Shown here piece after piece: positions 3,385 through 63,870 of a stretch of DNA of 64,000 nucleotides. Source of the stretch: Periweissella cryptocerci (GTDB taxonomy: Bacteria; Bacillota; Bacilli; Lactobacillales; Lactobacillaceae); contig NZ_CP037940.1 of assembly GCF_004358325.1 (NCBI RefSeq), positions 372,001 to 436,000 of the forward strand, written 5' to 3'. The number at the start of each line of letters is the position of its first letter. Within the stretch, counting starts at the first letter, position 1. The position numbers were made by a program, and so were the translations under genes. The notes beneath the pieces were generated by a model. The model did not search any database. It was not told where the DNA came from and saw only the letters and a program-made list of their open reading frames with translations.

Positions 3385-3780
3385 GGCTATATTTATTCTA
3401 GCGCGGAATTGCCGTTTCTGTCCTTTTCAATTATCTAATTACCGCGGTTCTATTGTTAGTGTTATTTTTCCATGCACTGCGGTCTGTGATTGAAAACCGC
3501 TTTTCACTAGTTTGAGCATTATTCCTAACTAACGGAGTGCCAGTAAATTGCTTGGCGGGCGCAGCCTTTACACCGCGACTGGGGTGATATGTATGAAATA
3601 CATGTCGCCGCTGAGGATGAGATGAGGAGTCTTAGGAATTTATTCCTTAGACTCCCAGCTTGTCCGAACCTCCCAAGACCGCACTTTGGCTTGGGAGGTT
3701 GCTTCCAGCGTGGTGCGCCAAGTAATTTACTGGCACGCAGTGGCCAAGTTTATTCAATCCCACGTCAGACGGAATAGAGT
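3385..3780 (+). repeat. Structured intergenic repeat, copy A (type 1)
   Basis: The left end is TTTTGGCTATATTTATTCTAGCG..GGAATT. The reverse complement of the right end is TTTTGGACTCTATTCCGTCTGACGTGGGATT, so the ends are imperfect inverted repeats. Inside, GTGCCAGTAAATTGCTTGGCG is complementary, apart from one G-T wobble, to the distal CGCCAAGTAATTTACTGGCAC. Between them are hairpins GATATGTAT/ATACATGTC, GTCTTAGGAAT/ATTCCTTAGAC and CCTCCCAAG/CTTGGGAGG. No gene is recognised inside. It lies between the rpsN terminator and the secreted protein gene. Confidence 0.9.
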
Positions 3781-3820
3781 CCAAAATAGAACCGTTCTTT
3801 TTCAATAATCCCGACAACAC

Positions 3821-21493: not shown

Positions 21494-21790
21494 GAGTTCT
21501 ATTCCGTCTGACGTGGGATTGAATAAAATTGGCCACTACGCGCCGGCAAATTACTTGGCGCACCACGCTGGAAGCAGCCTCCCAAGCCAAAGTGCGGTCT
21601 TGGTCGGTTCGGACAAGTTGGGAGTCTAAGGAATAAATTCCTAAGACTCCTCATCTTATCCTCAGCGACGATATGTGTTACACACGTATCGCCCCAGTCG
21701 CGGTGTAAAGTCTGCGACCGCCAAGCAATTTGCCGGCACTCCGTTAGTTAGTAATAATTTTCAAACTAGCAAAAAGCAATCGTTGTGAGC
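21494..21790 (-). repeat. Structured intergenic repeat, copy B (type 1, reverse)
   Basis: Read on the minus strand it has the right end CCCACGTCAGACGGAATAGAA, the closing stem GTGCCGGCAAATTGCTTGGCG paired with CGCCAAGTAATTTGCCGGCG, and the inner hairpins of copy A. Its far end is not recognisable beyond about 21790, where copy C follows in the opposite orientation. Confidence 0.85.
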
Positions 21791-21827
21791 TGAAGTTCGT
21801 TGAAAACCAATTGAGCCGCTAAAAAAA

Positions 21828-22575
21828 GGCTAAATTTTTTCTAGCGTGGAATTTGGATATGTGTCTCAGATTGATTCCCACTACGAGGCTGGAACCAGTC
21901 TGGACACCGTGATGGGAGACAAGCATTTGAAGCCACAGTGCGGTCTTCAAATGTTTGCGAAGCTTGGTTCGCTAACGCGCTAACCATCTTCACAAATCCA
22001 TAATCAGTAACAAAGCCCGTTACTGATTATGCCATCACGGTGCGAGCTAAAGTCCAGCCCGGTTCCAGCCTCTTCGTTAATTTGAGCAGACAACCAAACT
22101 GGTAATATGCCGTAATCCTTGTCGCTGTGGATTTAGCGGTAATCAATAGTTCAACGCTCATCTAGCGGAGTGACTGAAAATCACATTGTGGCCGCCAGGC
22201 TTTACACCGAAATGGGACAAACGTGACACCACGTGTCGGGTTTGTCGCTGAGGGTAGAGCCGACCGGCCTTATTTGTCCAGCGTAGCTACAAATGTGAGC
22301 AGTCTTTTGGCTTTAGCCATTAGACTGCCAGCTATCCCGAATTGCCCAAGACAGACATTCAGCCTGGAAGGCTAATCTAATCGGGTTTTGATTAGATTCA
22401 GTTGTTTGTTGCAAACAAACTGCTGGAATGTTTTGCGTTGCCGTACCTCAGGCATAAGCAAGCGGCTTGGGCATGTGCTTCCATCTCGGTGCACAATGTG
22501 ATTTCCAGGCACGCAGTGGCATCATACATCTCATCACATTTTATAAATTCCACGTCAGACGGAATAGAGCCAAAC
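21828..22575 (+). repeat. Structured intergenic repeat, copy C (type 2 plus extra branched module)
   Basis: This is the largest copy, about 750 bp. The left end is GGCTAAATTTTTTCTAGCG and the right end CCACGTCAGACGGAATAGAGC. The first half is the type 2 cloverleaf: GAGGCTGGAACCAGTCTGGA against TCCAGCCC..GGTTCCAGCCTC, with hairpins CATTTGAAG..CTTCAAATG and CATAATCAGTAAC..GTTACTGATTATG. The second half is bounded by CACATTGTG..CACAATGTG and holds more hairpins, including TCTAATC..GATTAGA and GTTTGTTGCAAACAAAC. No coding capacity is recognised. Confidence 0.88.
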
Positions 22576-33449: not shown

Positions 33450-33918
33450 TTGGCCCTATTCCGTTTGACATGGAATTGAATAAGATGTGATGTGATGTGA
33501 TGTATGATGCCACTGCGTGACTGAAAATCACATTGTGCACCGAAATGGAAGCACAATGTGATTTTCAGTCACTCCGCTAGATAAGCGTGAAATTATTGAT
33601 TACCGCTAAACTTGCAGCGACAAGGATTATGGCATATTACTAGTCAGACTGCCTACTCAAACTAACGAAGAGGCTGGAAACAGGCTGGACTTTAGCTCGC
33701 ACCGTGATGGCATAATCAGTAACGGGTTTCGTTACTGATTATGGATTTGTGAAGATGGTTACCGCGTTAGCGAACCAAGCTTCGCAAACATTTGAAGACC
33801 GCACTGTGGCTTCAAATGCTTGTCTTCCATCACGGTGTCCAGACTGGTTCCAGCCTCGTAGTGGGATTCAATCTGAGACACGTATCCAAATCCCACGATA
33901 GAAAAAAATAGCCAAAAT
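33450..33918 (-). repeat. Structured intergenic repeat, copy D (type 2, reverse)
   Basis: The ends are TTGGCCCTATTCCGTTTGACA and CCCACGATAGAAAAAAATAGCC. It holds the type 2 cloverleaf: GAGGCTGGAAACAGGCTGGA against TCCAGACTGGTTCCAGCCTC, CACCGTGATGG/CCATCACGGTG, and three inner hairpins. It also has one simple stem, GTGACTGAAAATCACATTGTG against CACAATGTGATTTTCAGTCAC, which corresponds to the base of the extra branch in copy C. A GATGT microsatellite lies near 33485. It begins right after the lipoprotein stop. Confidence 0.9.
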
Positions 33919-37306: not shown

Positions 37307-37496
37307 ATGGCTATAGTTTTTCTAACGTGGAATTGTCGTTTCTGGCCTTTTCAACCATCGAATTACTGAGGTTCTATTGTCAATGTTTGTTCATACTACT
37401 GCAGCCTGTGGTTGATAACTGTTTTCGCTAGTCTGAGCATTATTCCCAACTAACGGAGTGGTCAATTTTATTCCACGCTAAAATAAATAGAGTCAT
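37307..37496 (+). repeat. Structured intergenic repeat, copy E (short deletion form of type 1)
   Basis: It starts GGCTATAGTTTTTCTAACGTGG and keeps the left body of type 1 (CGTTTCTGGCCTTTTCAACC, ACTAACGGAGTG). It then jumps to ATTCCACGCTAAAATAAATAG, whose reverse complement looks like a second left end. All inner hairpins are lost. Confidence 0.8.
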
Positions 37497-42867: not shown

Positions 42868-43221
42868 GGCTAAATTTTTTCTAGCATGGAATTTGGATAT
42901 GTGTCTCAGCTTGATTCCCACTACGAGGCTGGAAACAGTCTGGACACCGTGATGGAAGACAAGCATTTGAAGCCACAGTGCGGTCTTCAAATGTTTGCGA
43001 AGCTTGGTTCGCTAACGCGGTAACCATCTTCACAAATCCATAATCAATAACGAAACCCGTTAATGATTATGCCATCACGGCGCAAGCTAAAGTCCAGCCT
43101 CTTCGTTAGTTCGAGTAGGCAGTCTGACTAGTAATATGCCGTAATCCTGGTCGCTGCAAGTTTAGCGGTAATCATACATCTCATCACATTTTATAAATTA
43201 CACGTCGGACGAAATAGCGCC
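42868..43221 (+). repeat. Structured intergenic repeat, copy F (type 2)
   Basis: The left end is GGCTAAATTTTTTCTAGCATGG and the right end ACACGTCGGACGAAATAGCGCC. The cloverleaf is the same as copy D, but the closing stem is shortened (GAGGCTGGAAACAGTCTGGA against TCCAGCCTC). It joins directly to copy G. Confidence 0.88.
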
Positions 43222-43595
43222 GTTATTGTGGGCTTGTCGTTTCTGTACTTTTCAATCACCCAATTACTGAGATTTTATTATCAGGGTTGGTTTTTTCATG
43301 CTACTGTGACCTGCTTTTCACTAGTTTGAGCATTATTCCGAACTAACGGAGTGGCGGTAAATTGCTTGGCGGGCGCAGCCTTTACACCACAACTGGGGTG
43401 ATATGTGTGAAACACATGTCACCGCTGAGGATGAGATGAGGAGTCTTAGGAATTTATTCCTTAGGCTCCCAGCTTATCCGAACCTCCCAAGACCGCACTT
43501 TGGCTTGGGAGGTTGCTTCCAGCGTGGTGCGCCAAGTAATTTATCGGCACGTAGTGACCAATTTTGTTCAACCCCACGTCAGACAGAATAGCGCC
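43222..43595 (+). repeat. Structured intergenic repeat, copy G (type 1)
   Basis: The body is as copy A: GTGGCGGTAAATTGCTTGGCG against CGCCAAGTAATTTATCGGCAC, with hairpins GATATGTGT/ACACATGTC and CCTCCCAAG/CTTGGGAGG, and right end CCCACGTCAGACAGAATAGCGCC. The left end is eroded where it joins copy F. Confidence 0.88.
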
Positions 43596-43616
43596 ATTCT
43601 AAATACTGAACCACTG

Positions 43617-50875: not shown

Positions 50876-50883
50876 TTTTTTTT

Positions 50884-51246
50884 GCTCTATTCCGTCTGAC
50901 GTGGAATTTATATGAGATGAGATGTATGATGCCACTAAACTTCTTGCAGCGACAAGGATTACGGCATATTACTAGTCATAATGCCTACGCAAACTAACGA
51001 AGAGGCTGGAAACAGGCTGGACTTTAGCTTGCACCGTGATGGCATAATCAGCAACGGGTTTCGTTACTGACTATGGATTTGTGAAGATGGTTACCGCGTT
51101 AGCGAACCAAGCTTCGCAAACATTTGAAGACCGTACTGTGGCTTCAAATGCTTGTCTTCCATCACGGTGTCCAGACTGGTTCCAGCCTCGTAGTGGGAAT
51201 CAATCTGAGACACATATCCAAATTCCACGCTAGAAAAAATTTAGCC
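50884..51246 (-). repeat. Structured intergenic repeat, copy H (type 2, reverse)
   Basis: The ends are GCTCTATTCCGTCTGACGTGG and CCACGCTAGAAAAAATTTAGCC. The cloverleaf is complete: GAGGCTGGAAACAGGCTGGA against TCCAGACTGGTTCCAGCCTC, CACCGTGATGG/CCATCACGGTG, and three inner hairpins. It lies between the convergent fni and flavodoxin genes. Confidence 0.9.
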
Positions 51247-52313: not shown

Positions 52314-52677
52314 GAGCTTTATTCCGTCTGACGTGGGATTTATAAAATGCGATGAGATACATGATGCCACTAAACTTCTTGCGGCGACAAAGATTACGGC
52401 ATATTACTAGTCAGAATGCTACGCAAACTAACGAAGAGGCTGGAACCAGTCTGGACTTTAGCTCGCACCGTGATGGCATAATCAGTAACGGGTTTCGTTA
52501 CTGATTATGGATTTGTGAAGATGGTTACCGCGTTAGCGAACCAAGCTTCGCAAACATTTGAAGACCGCACTGTGGCTTCAAATGCTTGTCTTCCATCACG
52601 GTGTCCAGACTGGTTCCGGCCTCGTAGTGGGAATCAATCTGAGACACATATCCAAATTCCACGCTAGAATAAATATG
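52314..52677 (-). repeat. Structured intergenic repeat, copy I (type 2, reverse)
   Basis: The ends are GCTTTATTCCGTCTGACGTGGG and CCACGCTAGAATAAATATG. The sequence is very similar to copy H, including CATAATCAGTAACGGGTTTC and its partner. It lies between two plus-strand genes, just before the promoter region of the SHOCT gene. Confidence 0.9.
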
Positions 52678-52751
52678 ATACATTCACATCAATTTCAAAT
52701 GTAAATGTTATAATACAAGTAATCTCAAGTAAGAAAGGAAATTTTACTAAT

Positions 52752-53510: not shown

Positions 53511-53549
53511 AAAAATGAGAATTCCGTCTGACGTGGAATTCTCATTTTT
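53511..53549. terminator. Hairpin terminator built from a structured-repeat end
   Basis: AAAAATGAGAATTCC and GGAATTCTCATTTTT form a perfect 15-bp stem. The loop and inner stem spell ATTCCGTCTGACGTGGAATT, identical to the outer end of copies H and I. Confidence 0.85.
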
Positions 53550-53559
53550 TATATCTACA

Positions 53560-54023
53560 TTGCTTTAAGAATACTCATGTACCACGTAATATACCTTAGG
53601 CACTATTTGAGCACATCACAAAATCAACGACTGTTTTTTTAGTCTGAGAATTACTACTAACTAACGGAGTGCCGGCAAATTGCTTGGCGGGCGCAGCCTT
53701 TACACCGCGACTGGGGGAATATGTGTGAAGCACATATTTCCGCTGAAGATGAGATGAGGAGTCTTGGGGATTTATCCCCTAGAGTCCCAGCTTATCTGAA
53801 CCTCACAAGACAGACATCCAGCCTGCAAGGCTAATCTAATCGCGTTAGGATTAGATTCAGTATTTTGTGAAACAAAATGCTGGGATGTTTTGCGTTGCCG
53901 GTTCGCAGGCATAAGCACAGACTGGCTTGGGAGGTTGCTTCCAGCGTGGTGCGTCAAGTAATTTGCTGGCACGTAGTGACCAAGTTTTATTCAATTCCAC
54001 GTCAGACGAATTAGAGCCAAAAT
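53560..54023 (+). repeat. Structured intergenic repeat, copy J (type 1 with extra branch)
   Basis: The closing stem GTGCCGGCAAATTGCTTGGCG pairs with CGTCAAGTAATTTGCTGGCAC. The hairpins are as copy A, but an extra module of about 115 bp sits inside the CCTCACAAG..CTTGGGAGG hairpin, containing TCTAATC..GATTAGA, ATTTTGTGAAACAAAAT and GCCTGC..GCAGGC stems. The left body differs from copy A and is shared with copy K (CTTTAAGAATACTCATGTAC). The right end is CCACGTCAGACGAATTAGAGCC. Confidence 0.88.
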
Positions 54024-59678: not shown

Positions 59679-60184
59679 GTCATTTCTGGACTTTTGCTTA
59701 AGAATACTCACATACCACGGAATATACCTTAAGCACTAGTTTGATTCCATCACGAAACCAGCAATAGCTAGTTTGCTTGAATCTGCCCCACAACGACTAT
59801 TTTTTACTAGTTTGAGCATTATTACGAACTAACGGAGTGCCGGCAAATTACTTGGCGGGCGCAGCCTTTACACCGCGACTGGGGGGAATATGTGTGCAGC
59901 ACATATTTCCGCTGAGGATAAGATGAGGAGTCTTAGGAATTTATTCCTTAGAGTCCCAGCTTGTCCGAACCGACCAAGACAGACATCCAGCCTGCAAGGC
60001 TAATCTAATCGCGTTAGGATTAGATTCAGTATTTTGTGAAACAAAATGCTGGGATGTTTTGCGTTGCCGGTTCGTAGGCATAAGCACAGACTGGCTTGGA
60101 AGGTTGCTTCCAGCGCGGTGCGCCAAGTAATTTGCCGGCACGGAGTTGCCCATTTTGAGCATTTTATATTGCAGAGAGCCAAAA
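59679..60184 (+). repeat. Structured intergenic repeat, copy K (type 1 with extra branch)
   Basis: It is close to copy J. The closing stem GTGCCGGCAAATTACTTGGCG pairs perfectly with CGCCAAGTAATTTGCCGGCAC. The hairpin branch with TCTAATC..GATTAGA and ATTTTGTGAAACAAAAT is present. The right end has lost the CACGTCAGACGG motif and keeps only AGAGCCAAAA. Confidence 0.88.
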
Positions 60185-63470: not shown

Positions 63471-63870
63471 GGTTATATTTTTTTCTAGCGTGGAATTGTT
63501 GTTTCTGTACTTTTTCAATCAGCAAATTACTGAGGCTCTGTTGTCAGTGTTTTTTCCATACTACTACGGCCTATGGTGGTAACTGTTTTTCGCTAGTTAC
63601 ATTATTCCTACTAACGGAGTGCCGGTAAATTACTTGGCGGGCGCAGCCTTTACACCGCGACTGGGGTGATATGTGTGCAACACATGTCGCCGCTGAGGAT
63701 GAGATGAGGAGTCTAGGGAATTTATTCCCATAGAGTCCCAGCTTATCCGAGTTGTTCAAGACCGCACTTTGGCTTGAACATGTGCTTCCAGCGCGGTGCG
63801 CCAAGTAATTTACTGGCACGCAGTGGCCGATTTTATTCAATCCCACGTCAGACAAAATAGCGCCCTAAAA
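63471..63870 (+). repeat. Structured intergenic repeat, copy L (type 1)
   Basis: The left end is GGTTATATTTTTTTCTAGCG and the right end CCCACGTCAGACAAAATAGCGCC. The closing stem GTGCCGGTAAATTACTTGGCG pairs with CGCCAAGTAATTTACTGGCAC. Hairpin GTTCAAG..CTTGAAC replaces the CCCAAG..CTTGGG of copies A and G, with both arms changed. Confidence 0.9.

Follow-up and report, generated by a model that had tools for sequence, protein, structure and literature searches.

The 64-kb window (the whole stretch of the Periweissella cryptocerci chromosome that was analysed, 64,000 nucleotides) contains twelve copies of a large intergenic element, and all twelve were found again at the positions given by an earlier sequence-only reading, with a total length of 4.9 kb. 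The longest and closest repeats among them reach 356 nt at 92% identity, which is far past chance. The copies are as follows, the strand being that of the ends.

3385..3781, plus strand: type A with both ends; RNA core at 3570-3715 (plus)
21495..21810, minus strand: type A, left end worn; RNA core at 21561-21706 (minus)
21828..22571, plus strand: composite of B and C; B core at 21905-22043 (minus, 51 bits), C part at about 22160-22550 (plus, 27 bits)
33450..33918, minus strand: type B; core at 33699-33837 (plus), in the opposite sense to the ends
37307..37494, plus strand: core-less derivative of type A, about 190 bp; no model match
42868..43221, plus strand: type B, between polA and dinG; core at 42945-43083 (minus)
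43222..43597, plus strand: type A, in tandem with the type B element at 42868..43221; core at 43384-43529 (plus)
50883..51246, minus strand: type B; core at 51031-51169 (plus); flanking 8-mers agree at 7 of 8 positions
52314..52682, minus strand: type B; core at 52465-52603 (plus)
53560..54018, plus strand: type A with a C-type segment; core at 53702-53847 (plus)
59679..60182, plus strand: type A with a C-type segment; core at 59870-60016 (plus)
63471..63864, plus strand: type A with both ends; core at 63652-63798 (plus)

The sequence-only reading had taken the copies to be a single family of structured elements with related ends. The ends are indeed common to all types, but the bodies fall into at least three kinds (A, B and C). 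Type A elements are about 395 bp long and type B elements about 355-470 bp, with common ends and differing interiors; body C occurs joined to A or B, with B at 21828-22571 and as a segment in A at 53560 and 59679. A structured body had been ascribed to every copy, and in this the reading went too far: the copy at 37307-37494 has no structured core by the covariance model. Its break points lie near short AGTG repeats (by eye), and several pieces of like size occur in the sampled stretches described below. The terminal motif proved real, since the genome contains 149 instances of GGCTCTATTCCGTCTGACGTGGRATT when up to 3 mismatches are allowed, and 0 of a backwards control; the right end is better preserved than the left. 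A hairpin with a T tail at 53515-53552 looks by eye as if built from the right-end sequence of the element, as though an end had turned into a terminator.

The abundance of the family was estimated from 60 evenly spaced 20-kb stretches plus the window, together 1.264 Mb or 42% of the 3.02-Mb chromosome. Matches to the twelve window copies (blastn) form 138 clusters in this sample and amount to 44,905 bp, or 3.55% of the sampled DNA; extrapolated from the 42% sample, the genome would hold about 330 copies, making up some 3.5% of its DNA. When one type A copy was used as a blastn query against its own genome, 343 first-look candidates appeared, and the 40 that were scored all show 84-100% identity; one further short piece matches this query at 78%. 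The 11 of the 138 clusters that score below 80 bits were excluded, and the later counts refer to the remaining 127. The chromosome, at 3.02 Mb, is larger than those of four genus mates (1.8-2.0 Mb), and the elements together with insertion sequences (IS) form part of the difference.

None of the 127 sampled elements lies within a gene, by simple gene calls that excluded reading frames largely contained in the elements. This bears out the view that all copies are intergenic, and copies inside genes, which that reading had named as a mark of a known IS derivative, did not appear in the sample. It had also placed many copies between convergent genes. Among the 112 elements with two called neighbours (the other 15 of 127 lie at edges of sampled stretches), only 30 are in convergent gaps, with 75 in co-directional and 7 in divergent ones; counted per gap, however, convergent gaps are the most often struck (30 of 108, versus 75 of 742 co-directional and 7 of 110 divergent gaps). 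Of 85 elements, 44 have a terminator-like hairpin pointing at them on the right and 14 have one on the left; at random intergenic points the figures are 60 of 300 (p about 3e-8 for the right flank) and 25 of 300, respectively.

The origin of the ends is indicated by a resident insertion sequence. An ISL3 transposase domain is matched at 22 places in the genome, many of them broken. One IS of about 1.53 kb is present at six loci (L032, L034, L035, L037, L040 and L043) that are 97-99% alike, with the transposase frame intact in three (L032, L034 and L035). Its protein belongs to the ISL3 family (PF01610; NF033550 at 249 and 244 bits, with a cut-off of 180). The left end of the IS, GGCTGTATTTTTTTTAGCGTGGGATT, and its right end, GGCTCTATTCCGTCTGACGTGGG (also written as CCCACGTCAGACGGAATAGAGCC), are close to the left and right ends of the elements, each being identical to the typical element end at 24 of 26 positions as counted by eye. 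A search for an IS with the same ends, which the sequence-only reading had recommended, thus succeeded within the same genome, and the IS shares both of the two different ends. No element match lies within the IS in the four IS copies that fall in sampled stretches. A second group of ISL3-domain IS, with ends GGCTCTATACTTTTTACTG, is mostly broken (L031, L033, L036, L038, L039, L041-L042 and L045-L049).

Both ends were recognised in 85 of the 127 elements, using loose end patterns that place some boundaries wrongly. At these fixed boundaries the flanking 8-mers agree at 8 of 8 positions in 15 of the 85 elements, at 7 of 8 in 7 and at 6 of 8 in 9, whereas mispaired flanks never agree at 8 of 8, and agree at 7 of 8 in 0.4% and at 6 of 8 in 2.1%; because misplaced boundaries hide some repeats, the number of duplications is a lower bound. 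An 8-bp repeat also flanks the IS copy L034 (by eye). An empty site was sought in one gap, that between polA and dinG, and it is vacant in all four genus mates: 25-47 nt separate the matched parts there, compared with 903 nt here, where two elements lie at 42868-43597. The elements have no transposase gene of their own, the longest ATG open reading frame having a median of 35 and a maximum of 80 amino acids in 32 elements of 370-450 bp. The proposal that these are MITE-like elements moved by a transposase encoded elsewhere is therefore supported by the ISL3 IS sharing both ends, by the 8-bp duplications and by the empty site. Sequence alone could hardly lend stronger support to mobility by means of ISL3 ends, and the resident IS would supply the movement in trans.

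The orientation of the elements follows DNA replication. Origin and terminus are marked by two switches in GC skew, one near 1.6 Mb and the other between the contig ends. Judged by their ends, 103 of the 127 elements are oriented to match their replichore (p 7e-13; 71 of 91 type A and 32 of 36 type B), a bias with which gene direction and terminators are in part confounded. Where the directions of the two neighbours cancel, namely in convergent and divergent gaps, 28 of 37 match (p 0.003); the co-directional gaps offer just three elements on the strand that opposes replication, one of which matches the replichore. A pattern search of the whole genome agrees, with 59 of the 73 forward right ends listed falling in the second replichore (counted from the list), and 6 of 7 right ends of the IS type are oriented the same way by our own reading of the loci. 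The second ISL3-domain group, with GGCTCTATACTTTTTACTG ends, shows by eye no bias of the kind seen in the first group. Strict orientation by the adjoining terminator was considered and rejected: elements in the minority orientation have the terminator on the left more often than on the right (7 versus 3), and elements without a terminator still match the replichore by 23:5. The strand carrying the RNA motif behaves differently from the ends: in the sampled genome, 28 of 37 type A copies have it one way relative to replication and 21 of 24 type B copies have it the other way. Since A and B cores face opposite ways while the ends keep one orientation, the bias belongs to the ends.

Replisome-coupled transposition would produce the end orientation observed, and by analogy ISL3 may transpose in this way. 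Orientation bias linked to replication has been described for Tn7 (through TnsE), IS200/IS605 and other families, and has been tied to the sliding clamp (PMC5371812). Insertion orientation follows replication in those systems as it does here, but their transposases are different ones.

The interior of the elements has the properties of a structured RNA. RNAalifold gives -75.5 kcal/mol for 72 type A cores on one strand versus -38.7 on the other, and -80.4 versus -70.5 kcal/mol for 26 type B cores, where the better strand is opposite to the ends; the predicted fold of the type B RNA strand is only modestly better than that of its complement. The type A fold contains 486 G-U cells versus 26 A-C cells. 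Pairs were counted in 54 of the 72 type A cores, 17 being left out as duplicates or for insertions relative to the consensus and one for a large deletion. The structure drawn from the consensus pairs in 96.9% of 2,699 cells, versus 34-47% when the structure is slid along the sequence. This percentage favours the structure because the structure was derived from the same, related copies, and changes on both sides of a pair are the better test: such changes occur in 14 of 50 pairs and in 115 cells, versus a mean of 33.6 after shuffling, and none of 500 shuffles reaches the observed number. The stem of the last hairpin is the weakest kept, with 89% of cells paired in this genome.

Recent changes, defined as alleles in at most 3 copies, point the same way. 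Those that hit Watson-Crick pairs yield G-U over A-C by 35:14 in type A (p 0.004) and 28:8 in type B (p 0.001). At unpaired sites in type A, C>T stands at 0.61 per C and G>A at 0.76 per G, a pattern with no bias matching the G-U excess; the corresponding values per site in type B are 0.85 and 0.61, and this lean may account for part of the G-U count in B. On these comparisons, conservation of the body as an RNA on one strand is well supported for type A and less strongly supported for the rest. The plan of the module spans about 140-200 nt: a closing stem bears three hairpins, and the last of these has a stem that covaries freely and ends in the tip AGACCGNACUUYGGCU. A pseudoknot joining the last loop to the junction (ACUUU with AAAGU) does not hold generally, as judged by eye. 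A scan of one copy found neither a promoter nor a terminator above chance. The core is missing from some elements. Across the copies, variant forms of the three hairpins combine in many ways (by eye), as if recombination had swapped hairpins between elements.

Types A and B appear to be two arrangements of one module. A covariance model built from type A alone (R1, with rough E-values) detects the type B body in all five window copies that have it, at 42-52 bits. In A the model matches the strand of the ends (6 of 6) and in B the other strand, and by these matches the module is inserted between the ends in both senses. R1 does not establish the C body, which scores 27 bits, because the antisense strands of type A copies score equally, at up to 27 bits; C is linked to A and B through repeats D8 and D11. 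The remark that size and branching go far past ordinary MITEs was apt, in that the body is a conserved, covarying, RNA-like module that is also present in other genera.

Relatives in other genomes were sought by model and by motif. Among 396 other Lactobacillaceae genomes, with 7 candidates scored per genome, R1 gave matches at E<=1e-3 in 10, all weak at 30-39 bits; the best 10 R1 alignments outside this genome all hold the same last hairpin. The tip pattern AGACCGNACTTYGGCT occurs in 47 of 397 Lactobacillaceae genomes including this one (46 of 396 others), with 97 copies in this genome and 72, 63 and 39 in the richest others, while a control pattern occurs in 3 genomes, once in each. It is found in 8 of 40 genera, this one counted, one having a single copy and seven having multiple copies in a genome. 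Because the tip itself is the search pattern, its constancy is not evidence; only its abundance relative to the control is. Outside the family there were no tip matches in 247 genomes from other families of the order, where the control matched once in each of two. A scan for one 18-nt variant of the tip with organisms named returned 21 stretches, 17 of them from Lactobacillaceae, namely Levilactobacillus (7 species), Lactiplantibacillus (4 species) and one metagenome-assembled genome labelled Lactobacillus; the other 4 are unrelated, a number that fits chance. Within its own genus the element was found in none of four genus mates, whether by DNA query, by R1 or by motif.

From the foreign matches, 82 distinct copies (79 loci, with 71 distinct 32-mers; loci L116-L128 and L158-L160 left out) were folded. 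The five outer pairs of the last-hairpin stem are standard in 94.6% of cells, versus 48.4% after shuffling of the arms (maximum 55.2% in 500 shuffles), and are made up of many pair types. G-U again exceeds A-C, by 23:7 (p 0.005), and 57 of 82 copies have a lower folding energy on the motif strand than on the complement, compared with 100 of 217 control windows. In one genus (g4), 18 of 24 extracted copies, selected for the same overall shape, share 40 predicted pairs, 25 of which changed on both sides in at least one sequence, a count that stands without a shuffled control. Single-sequence folds of the foreign bodies give more than one multibranched plan, in three rough groups of 33, 20 and 29 copies. 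As these predictions have it, a multibranched fold keeps its last hairpin constant, but not every helix.

The foreign elements also differ in their ends. In genome G348 of genus g4 they are mostly about 320 bp long and have inverted-repeat ends CTRAAGGTTGAAAG, which match 238 + 244 times (482 in all) at no more than one mismatch, versus one match for a control. Exact flanking repeats of 7, 8 or 9 bp (5, 6 and 3 cases) border 14 of 23 distinct paired elements, versus at most 0.6% for each length in mispaired flanks, and 3 of the 23 hold the exact tip. An ISL3 source for the CTRAAGGTTGAAAG ends is excluded, the G348 genome having no ISL3 transposase match; the IS that owns these ends was not found for G348. 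With other ends in a genome without ISL3, and with its inverted position in type B, the module behaves as a conserved cargo that changes vehicles.

Carriage by phages or by plasmids found no support in the searches made. No viral contig held either of two 18-nt motif variants, and no plasmid matched one copy each of types A and B or two foreign elements, with the exception of a partial match covering 25% of a G348 element in a Limosilactobacillus reuteri plasmid (NZ_CP030091.1). This match (locus L256) is 83% identical and includes the position of the last hairpin; an IS30-family transposase gene ends about 230 bp upstream of it.

No described family was recognised in the sources searched. No Rfam entry was found: Rfam 15 gives no match in the window at the gathering score, and none in the two stretches of element searched at E<=1. 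The only hit in seven foreign loci, searched at E<=0.1, is an L13 leader outside the matched core. No description of these elements was found in the open-access literature. An older survey of stem-loop repeat families covers Lactobacillus johnsonii (PMC2267715). ISL3-family MITEs resemble the present elements in sharing ends with a resident ISL3 IS, in their 8-bp duplications, in having no transposase gene and in being intergenic; the present elements differ in having two distinct ends, in being mostly 350-750 bp long and in carrying a conserved covarying RNA-like body unlike the interior of the IS. BOX, RUP, bcr1, Correia (NEMIS) and ERIC are likewise multi-copy intergenic bacterial elements with stem-loops, some of them modular and transcribed, but they have other sequences and other hosts. 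GOLLD, ROOL, OLE and HEARO are also large and multibranched, some being carried on mobile DNA; we take these RNAs to be among the Rfam models, and they differ from the present family in that it has no Rfam match. IS200/IS605 elements have characteristic ends and make no target duplication, which does not fit the 8-bp duplications seen here. Membership in REP/RAYT or IS200/IS605, with hairpin ends and no duplication, is contradicted by these duplications together with the ends shared with ISL3. We know of no report in which different terminal repeats enclose one and the same RNA body across several genera.

We think it probable that these are non-autonomous transposons moved by ISL3 and carrying a conserved structured RNA as cargo. 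The resident ISL3 transposase would act in trans on the two shared ends and make 8-bp duplications, mostly in AT-rich gaps past the 3' ends of genes, and capture of the target is probably coupled to the replication fork, which would fix the orientation of the ends. The ends would enclose an RNA module of about 140-200 nt that selection keeps as RNA on one strand, a cargo common to several Lactobacillaceae genera and set between at least two kinds of transposon ends. Its transcript may bind a conserved host factor through the hairpin tip, and this would aid persistence of the element rather than serve the host.

Several other readings account for parts of the evidence. MITEs are usually seen as inert hitchhikers, and an ordinary MITE family, whose interior is a palindrome-rich passenger without function spread by the IS, would be expected to show the shared ends, 8-bp duplications, empty site, intergenic position and core-less copies. 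We nevertheless consider this quite unlikely, because it leaves unexplained the abundant 16-nt tip on covarying stems across genera, the excess of G-U over A-C among recent changes and the presence of the same module behind different ends. A benefit to the host is unlikely in our judgment, although a cis element such as a terminator, an RNA stabiliser or an anti-polarity signal, spread by the transposon, would suit the location at 3' ends of genes and beside terminator-like hairpins (right 44 of 85 versus 60 of 300, left 14 of 85 versus 25 of 300). Type A cores are mostly antisense to the adjoining genes, the folded strand of most A copies running against the prevailing direction of the genes, whereas B cores are mostly sense; with opposite senses in A and B no single cis role fits, and the scanned copy has no terminator above chance.

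The structure might instead act as DNA, as a cruciform or single-strand fold at the fork that is recognised by the transposase or a host nuclease. Hairpin-rich elements with replication-linked orientation are what this would predict, and in DNA G-T mispairs are milder than A-C, so that G-T would be tolerated for that reason. However, the folded strand lies in opposite ways relative to the fork in A (28 of 37) and B (21 of 24) while the ends stay constant; orientation thus does not follow the folded strand, and a role as DNA seems rather improbable. That the covariation arose by mutation, through template switching in quasi-palindromes with one arm correcting the other, is suggested by the long stems and, by eye, by the many combinations of hairpin variants. 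This mechanism predicts neither the G-U preference nor the constant loop, both of which are seen, and the unpaired sites leave the bias in A unexplained, although those in B lean slightly toward it; we regard it as very unlikely.

If ISL3-moved transposons do carry a conserved RNA cargo, a further and more tentative step, which we hold to be possible but somewhat doubtful, is that the module represents an unrecognised class of selfish structured RNA in Lactobacillaceae. Such RNAs would be multibranched, would bind a host factor by the tip, and would reach up to hundreds of copies per genome between unrelated transposon ends, with a vehicle that changes by genus. In that case they would be the bacterial equivalent of SINEs, which also combine a host-binding RNA with borrowed enzymes. 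The elements constitute a mobile family, absent from Rfam, with an RNA-like module that appears to be under structural constraint on one strand. The two-ended design and the replichore orientation offer a natural data set for studying transposition coupled to the fork in ISL3 elements, and the constant tip is a direct handle for finding a bound factor. At a density of about 3.5% of this genome, the elements are numerous enough to matter for gene expression and genome size.
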